Source: a virus
Reading direction: 5' to 3' (one strand)
Virus record (IMG/VR): IMGVR_UViG_3300042731_000710
Span: 1 to 34,345 of that record
DNA length: 34,345 bases
Shown here: positions 3,689-4,533 of the stretch, piece by piece
Layout: every line of letters starts with the position of its first letter
How positions within the stretch are numbered: the stretch's first letter is position 1
The notes under the pieces: model-generated
Told to the model about the DNA's origin: nothing
The model's database searches: none
What the model saw: only the letters and a program-made list of their open reading frames with translations
Translations under genes and position numbers: made by a program

Positions 3689-4196
3689 ATTATTTGAAGG
3701 CACCTTTTCTAATAAGCGTCAAGCACAGTCTCATCCTACCCGTTATGCACACATTCGGGTAACACACAAAAAAATTTCAGACAATCGATTCTATGGTGAG
3801 CAGGCATACAACTACCTGCTCAACCGACCATACAGGCAATTTGTAATTGAAGTAGTTGATGAGGGCGAACATCTACGCCTGAAGAACTATGAGATCAAAG
3901 ATCCTACAGAATTCATCAACTGTGAGAATCTAGATAAACTCACTGATGATCGCTTGACATACCGACCATCATGTGATAATATTATGAAGCAAGAGGGACC
4001 AAGACTATTCAAAGGTAAGAATGATACCTGCGAATGCTGGGTCATGCGCCGCAACATCAAAACTTATGTTGCCAATGAAGTGCAGTTGTCTCAAGAATAC
4101 TACGAAGTTTTAGATCGTGGTCTTGATGCAACTACCAACCGTAAGGTTTGGGGATCTGATTGGGGAGCATTCAAGTTTAAACGAATGCCTTTGTAG
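3672..4196 (+). CDS. cpeT: CpeT/CpcT-like phycobiliprotein lyase
   Basis: A 174-residue protein of the CpeT/CpcT family, T-type lyases or chaperones that help attach bilin chromophores to phycobiliproteins. Seen in the sequence: F-L-E-L-F-E-G-T-F-S-N-K-R-Q-A-Q at the start, Y-G-E-Q-A-Y-N-Y (41-48), R-P-Y-R-Q (52-56), K-N-Y-E-I-K-D-P (71-78), and a W-G-S-D-W-G-A-F-K-F-K-R ending. The length fits viral CpeT. In infected cells it could keep phycoerythrin or other antenna proteins working, or bind bilins for another purpose; its role in phage is not settled. The last ten bases, including the whole stop codon, lie inside tRNA-Thr. It is a strong marker for a cyanobacterial host. Confidence 0.85.
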   Translation: MNTFLELFEGTFSNKRQAQSHPTRYAHIRVTHKKISDNRFYGEQAYNYLLNRPYRQFVIEVVDEGEHLRLKNYEIKDPTEFINCENLDKLTDDRLTYRPSCDNIMKQEGPRLFKGKNDTCECWVMRRNIKTYVANEVQLSQEYYEVLDRGLDATTNRKVWGSDWGAFKFKRMPL

Positions 4197-4258
4197 CTCA
4201 GTGGTAGAGCAGGGCTTTTGTAAAGCTCAGGTCGCAAGTTCAAATCTTGTCGAAGGCT
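4187..4258 (+). tRNA. tRNA-Thr (anticodon TGT)
   Basis: Acceptor GCCTTTG (4187-4193) pairs with CGAAGGC (4251-4257) with one G-U; the discriminator is T4258. Anticodon stem GGGCT/AGCTC encloses the loop TTTGTAA with anticodon TGT at 4219-4221. The T arm is GCAAG-TTCAAAT-CTTGT. It reads ACA codons. The 5' ten bases overlap the 3' end of cpeT. CCA is not encoded. Confidence 0.93.
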
Positions 4259-4260
4259 CT

Positions 4261-4333
4261 GGGGAATTAGCTCAGTTGGTAGAGCGCCTGCTTTGCACGC
4301 AGGAAGTCAGGAGTTCGAGTCTCCTATTCTCCA
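4261..4333 (+). tRNA. tRNA-Ala (anticodon TGC)
   Basis: Acceptor GGGGAAT (4261-4267) pairs with ATTCTCC with one G-U. Anticodon stem CCTGC/GCAGG encloses TTTGCAC with TGC at 4294-4296. The T arm is CAGGAG-TTCGAGT-CTCCT. It reads GCA and related Ala codons. It lies only two bases after tRNA-Thr, so the pair is probably processed from one transcript. Confidence 0.95.
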
Positions 4334-4335
4334 TA

Positions 4336-4450
4336 ACGGATTGGCGACATCCGTGCTCACATCTCCAGGAGAAAAAAGAACTGGAACATCAACCCATGTG
4401 AGAGAGGGGTGGGACCCCCCTTGGTGCCCCCGCTGCTGACGAGTAGCGGG
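4336..4450 (+). ncRNA. Unexplained structured RNA region: four consecutive hairpins between two tRNAs
   Basis: This non-coding stretch between tRNA-Ala and tRNA-Asn folds by eye into four successive elements. (1) ACGGAT (4336-4341) pairs with ATCCGT (4349-4354). (2) CTCACAT (4356-4362) pairs with ATGTGAG (4396-4402) and encloses an inner hairpin TCCAG (4364-4368)/CTGGA (4381-4385) with an A-rich loop. (3) GGGGT (4406-4410) pairs with ACCCC (4414-4418). (4) A nine-pair stem CCCGCTGCT (4429-4437)/AGTAGCGGG (4442-4450) has a GACG tetraloop and one G-U. I recognise no known RNA family, and it does not fold as a tRNA. The last hairpin lacks the T run of a terminator. It could be a small RNA processed together with the tRNAs. 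The structure is directly visible; function is unknown. Confidence 0.5.
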
Positions 4451-4459
4451 TATTCCCAA

Positions 4460-4533
4460 TCCTCTATAGCTCAATCAGGCAGAGCGGTTGACTGTTAATC
4501 AATAGGTTCCTGGTTCGAGTCCAGGTGGAGGAG
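4460..4533 (+). tRNA. tRNA-Asn (anticodon GTT)
   Basis: Acceptor TCCTCTA (4460-4466) pairs with TGGAGGA (4526-4532) with one wobble; the discriminator is G4533. Anticodon stem GTTGA/TCAAT encloses CTGTTAA with GTT at 4494-4496. The T arm is CCTGG-TTCGAGT-CCAGG. It reads AAC/AAU codons. Confidence 0.94.

Follow-up and report, generated by a model that had tools for sequence, protein, structure and literature searches.

A putative structured small RNA borne on a cassette among the tRNA genes of T4-like Synechococcus phages

What occupies the long spacer between the tRNA-Ala and tRNA-Asn genes of a T4-like cyanophage? The locus lies in a 34 kb virus contig (the window, meaning the whole 34,345-nucleotide stretch that was analysed), whose gene content is that of a T4-like cyanophage, with a CpeT-like antenna protein, DNA endonuclease V and a tail-fibre protein. 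Its four tRNAs are all on the plus strand, and according to ARAGORN tRNA-Thr (4187-4259) directly adjoins tRNA-Ala, in keeping with the remark of the first-pass annotation that spacing there is far shorter than between tRNA-Ala and tRNA-Asn. That annotation had described four consecutive hairpins in the spacer, saw neither a plausible gene nor a tRNA, tmRNA or terminator layout, and proposed a small RNA freed by tRNA processing. All of the stems exist, namely S1, the nested S2 and S2b, S3 and S4 (Table 1); ARAGORN and Rfam call the four tRNAs only, and S4 is followed by UAUUCCCAA, where a terminator scan makes no call. A protein gene was rejected, as no reading frame is kept across copies and indels that break the frame occur in S1, in the loop and between S3 and S4. 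As judged from sequence comparison, the spacer almost certainly encodes a structured non-coding RNA roughly 125 bases long, whose limits were set at the base past the tRNA-Ala discriminator and the base preceding tRNA-Asn.

Table 1. Predicted RNA, its structural elements and the flanking tRNA genes, in window coordinates
Feature	Position	Strand	Remarks
tRNA-Ala(TGC)	4261-4333 (ARAGORN: 4260-4334)	+	ARAGORN; upstream neighbour, whose 3' end sets the RNA 5' end
Predicted non-coding RNA, entire	4334-4459 (126 nt)	+	From tRNA ends and the 5' start common to 152 copies
S1 hairpin	4336-4354; stem 4336-4340/4350-4354	+	Covariation: CG/GU/GC/AU and AU/GC pairs
S2 outer stem, CTCACAT/ATGTGAG	4356-4362/4396-4402	+	Pairing in 100% of cells; AU replaced by GC
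S2b inner stem, TCCAG/CTGGA	4364-4368/4381-4385	+	Nested within S2
Purine-rich loop GAGAAAAAAGAA of S2b	4369-4380	+	Conserved; candidate contact site
CAACCC in S2 internal loop	4390-4395	+	CCC could pair with GGG 4411-4413 of the S3 loop
S3 hairpin, loop UGGGACC	4404-4422; stem 4404-4409/4417-4422	+	Strongest covariation, GC/AU/UA
S4 hairpin, 9 pairs, GACG tetraloop	4429-4450; stem 4429-4437/4442-4450	+	Tallied separately
tRNA-Asn(GTT)	4460-4533	+	ARAGORN; predicted 5' processing site would define the RNA 3' end

Folding by itself is insufficient to establish an RNA here, because the energy of the window copy lies merely 2.1 standard deviations below that of shuffled sequences (z -2.09; 8 of 200 shuffles are equally good). 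The decisive support for the predicted RNA is comparative rather than energetic. In a MAFFT alignment of 60 cores, 98.3% of cells pair and two-sided changes occupy 97 cells versus 21 in shuffles. Alignment of 100 members to a covariance model, a procedure that leans towards structure, gave 97 distinct rows in which 99.3% of cells pair, with 142 two-sided changes versus 27 shuffled; these changes fall in 13 of the 23 core pairs, and slid controls yield at most 14. Significance was assessed with a tree-based, phylogeny-aware null in the style of R-scape. Seven pairs reach E<0.05 within the structure (5-23 and 8-20 in S1, 31-68 in S2, 37-53 and 38-52 in S2b, 78-90 and 79-89 in S3), and two of the seven hold over all column pairs, whereas no off-structure pair is significant under the same null. 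The covariation check that the first-pass annotation had suggested thus places all four core helices significantly above phylogeny. Against the window, the covariance model, of which the window copy is itself a member, matches 4333-4429 with 112 bits (E 3e-24). G-U pairs are consistent with the plus strand only, and the minus strand was rejected as the RNA, since many of these pairs would turn into A-C mismatches.

The individual helices add further detail. In 14 of 97 copies, AG/CU replaces GA/UC in S2b, each of the two pairs having E 0.0024, and the covariation of S3 is significant even across all column pairs. The loop of S2b has the lowest mean minor-allele frequency among the regions measured (0.9%), a value partly biased by one of the two scan patterns, which demanded part of the loop; the conservation is also present in copies obtained by blastn and by the S3-side pattern. 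Its A-rich purine sequence GAGAGAAAAAAGAA is a candidate contact site. The CCC of the S2 internal loop and the GGG of the S3 loop form a possible pseudoknot: pairing could occur in 59-60 of 60 sequences, both segments being nearly invariant and hence giving no covariation signal. S4 with its invariant GACG loop is found in 107 of 157 copies and covaries as well, its 29 distinct stems using many kinds of pair at each position. In most of the other 50 copies a different hairpin takes its place, and in a few there is none or the sequence is cut off. The pattern suggests that the S4 position is an exchangeable 3' module. In L010, L012, L018, L029 and other loci, S4 is exchanged as a unit for GTCAGTGTTATTCTGCAGGATATCACTGAC or other hairpins.

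Three further structural candidates were discarded. A closing helix GGATTGG/CCAATCC round the whole element occurs in the window and is missing from most relatives; a second pseudoknot (CCAA/UUGG) does not, as judged by eye, pair consistently in the alignment; and a hammerhead core (CUGACGA) in S4 has no visible GAAA partner in a stem-loop that varies freely.

How widespread is the element? A blastn search with the spacer alone recovered 17 Synechococcus phage records representing 11 distinct phages (Sf-CH1b, Sf-CH11, Sf-CH1a, Sf-FR1, Bellamy, S-8S53, S-SCSM2R, S-CAM3, S-CREM2, S-SCSM1 and S-H34), in which the copies are nearly always unannotated sequence, and two pattern scans added more than 140 loci from IMG/VR. 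In total at least 157 copies, partly pattern-selected, were examined; all are cyanophage, and named carriers are exclusively Synechococcus phages, and a single true copy was present in all 16 of 16 carrier records. Weak blastn matches in Gordonia and Arthrobacter (E about 1-4) and one locus from the genome scan (L166) were dismissed as chance. The one apparent bacterial carrier, a contig of a Flavobacteriaceae MAG (L167; GTDB, NZAX01000079.1), encodes a phage ssDNA-binding protein and PhoH-like genes beside the RNA element, for which reason it was interpreted as phage sequence binned wrongly, the MAG being likely contaminated with cyanophage DNA. On this distribution, the element is a cassette that T4-like Synechococcus phages carry once per genome within their tRNA arrays, and its patchy carriage (17 records in the phage collection) implies that it is dispensable.

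Stems absent from close relatives with the same tRNA order were to count against a functional RNA. In Syn19, tRNA-Ala and tRNA-Asn lie side by side with 5 nt between them and no cassette, and in S-RIM8 and syn9 the space between the two tRNAs is taken up by different short hairpins; all three are without the whole cassette and none carries a decayed one, so these relatives do not count against the RNA. Elsewhere, the copy at L045:6221-6322 is broken past S3 (GTGGAATCCTTAAATAG), with the next gene directly after, and is probably decaying.

All 157 copies have the same orientation as neighbouring tRNAs, where any are in view. In 120 copies, the upstream tRNA ends, according to ARAGORN, 21-24 nt ahead of S2, which corresponds to 0-3 nt before the RNA, and this tRNA can be any of six types (Ala, Gly, Asn, Thr, Arg or Leu). 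Downstream, the next tRNA (Asn, Val, Leu, Thr, Ala or Pro) usually starts about 100-115 nt past the S2 start. Among the 152 of 157 copies with enough upstream sequence, 125 are preceded by a tRNA T-arm, 27 by a TATAAT box and none by neither. The TATAAT box ends 27-31 nt before S2 and is accompanied in 24 of the 27 copies by a TTGACA match (5-6 of 6 positions) at 17 nt; this promoter is of the sigma-70 type, and its predicted transcription start falls at the same UAACGG that would form the 5' end of tRNA-flanked copies. The 5' end is thus conserved whatever lies upstream, and the replacement of tRNA processing by a promoter at the same base is in effect an experiment of nature, one that suggests a need for a defined 5' end. 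Release of a small RNA through tRNA processing is favoured by the covarying stems, the lack of an Rfam match and the position 0-3 nt behind six tRNAs, but tRNA processing is not the sole route, given the 27 copies with a promoter and no upstream tRNA.

Could the element instead act in cis, as a leader or antiterminator similar to put, EAR or LoaP hairpins that helps polymerase to continue through the tRNA array and the long genes that follow? It sits inside stable-RNA transcription units, directly past a promoter in 27 copies, and in the window it precedes the 12 kb gene for the 3992-aa tail-fibre protein; furthermore, two carriers have the gene for a NusG-like protein no more than about 2.5 kb away. 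However, only two of ten carrier genomes have a NusG domain and the other eight have none, which makes NusG-dependent antitermination unlikely as a general role, although host NusG could be the partner instead of a phage one. The element also often lies at the distal end of its array, where the genes downstream vary among phages, and a cis element has no need of a 5' end 0-3 nt from a tRNA end or a transcription start. A constant position before one class of regulated genes, as for a leader or riboswitch, was not found, and the downstream tRNA varies. Overall, a cis-acting role is improbable.

It is conceivable, furthermore, that the cassette is an inert spacer or a selfish hairpin hitch-hiking in tRNA arrays. 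Other small hairpin modules do occupy the tRNA spacers of these phages, and among otherwise similar tRNA orders some have the cassette and others do not. Against this, every helix covaries, the loop is more conserved than the stems, each genome has a single copy and consensus promoters are kept, features that together indicate selection for an RNA product and leave the inert reading very improbable.

Taken as a whole, the likely explanation is that 4334-4459 is a gene of its own, whose product is a small, structured and stable RNA. In tRNA-flanked copies, the upstream end would be released by host tRNA 3' processing, through RNase Z or exonucleases, and the downstream end by RNase P. The S4 hairpin would protect the 3' end, and the product would build up as a stable RNA during infection. 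Action in trans is itself probable, and a host protein or ribonucleoprotein might serve as the partner, to which the compact S2/S3 core may offer the purine-rich loop as a decoy or cofactor. Whether the RNA contacts a protein rather than pairing with another RNA is an evenly balanced matter. Base pairing has in its favour that the exposed loop of 12-13 nt is the most conserved part of the element and could bind U-rich or pyrimidine-rich RNAs, as a regulator or as a sponge like those derived from 3'ETS sequences. In ten carrier genomes, however, antisense matches to the loop are no commoner than in the reversed control and fall at no conserved site, and the window likewise gives no enrichment, so that antisense targets in phages were rejected; the elaborate conserved core also exceeds what a seed would need. 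A base-pairing regulator is accordingly an unlikely reading. More tentatively, the element could represent a new family of trans-acting phage RNAs that block or divert some component of the host, such as a defence nuclease, RNase E or a protein of the translation machinery, each RNA lying on a mobile cassette and obtaining one 5' end by two routes.

How does the element compare with known RNAs? Small RNAs from tRNA spacers of the 3'ETS-leuZ type are short, weakly structured sponges cut from a tRNA precursor. Excision together with tRNAs is also proposed for the element, which differs in its conserved fold and in the alternative of its own promoter. GOLLD and ROOL are structured RNAs of phages and bacteria that often lie near tRNAs; they are far larger than the element, which has no Rfam match. 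Their structures have been described (PMC12286853). A comparison of 4334-4459 with Rfam 15, which the first-pass annotation had recommended, gave no family at the gathering threshold and none at E<=10. The cyanophage RNAs in Rfam (wcaG, manA, PhotoRC-II and glnA) are, as the element appears to be, structured and from marine cyanophages, but they are 5'-UTR cis-regulators and the element matches none of them.

The closest analogues are RNAC (species 1) and RNAD (species 2) of phage T4, stable, late-expressed RNAs of the tRNA operon whose role is not established (PMC9697503, PMC3014915). At 139 nt and 119 nt, they too are small non-coding genes in the tRNA operon of a T4-like phage and on the same strand, and RNAD begins 1 nt behind a tRNA just as the element directly abuts one. 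The folds differ, however, and RNAC has a T-arm-like 3' end that the element is without. With filters off, the best covariance-model score in the T4 tRNA region is 7.5 bits (E 0.37), and the whole T4 genome gives no match; homology was thus rejected for both sequence and structure, and the element may work alike without being a member of the same family. Published accounts of S-SCSM1 and S-CREM2 annotate tRNAs and Rfam cis-regulators, with the element absent (PMC9602691, PMC10665884), and it is likewise absent from the published annotations in the open-access papers covered. By these comparisons the element is a new RNA family, apparently undescribed, in an abundant group of marine viruses, and it was missed because annotation depends on Rfam and on programs that find tRNAs. 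It shows that T4, whose RNAC and RNAD have been the main examples, is not peculiar in having small RNAs within its tRNA operon, and the isolates Bellamy, S-CAM3, S-SCSM1 and S-CREM2 carry the element, which makes it testable.

The tRNA spacers of these phages hold additional recurrent modules. One consists of GGGGGAGUACAAAAGAUCU, a hairpin and AGCGCCCCC, with a conserved UACAAAAGAUC within, and occurs at L175:1672-1713 (syn9), at L005:2226-2271 (Sf-CH11) and downstream of the element in L067 and L079; it has no Rfam match and is possibly another small cyanophage RNA. A second module, TACCAGGACTTTGGTCCGAATTGCAGGTTGGTTCACCTGCA, forms two hairpins between the RNA element and the next tRNA, just downstream of the element in L020, L030, L034, L072, L099 and S-CREM2 (L009), and its GGUUGG could pair with CCAACC of the element. 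A short hairpin, TTCGCTATTTGCGAATAGCGAA, recurs in the tRNA spacers of syn9 (L175:1645-1667) and S-RIM8 (L174:1649-1673) and lies downstream of the element in L035. In Sf-CH11, the slot between tRNA-Ala and tRNA-Asn, which is the element's place in the window, is filled otherwise, by about 200 nt of unannotated sequence with several hairpins (L005:2226-2420), and the element follows tRNA-Asn.
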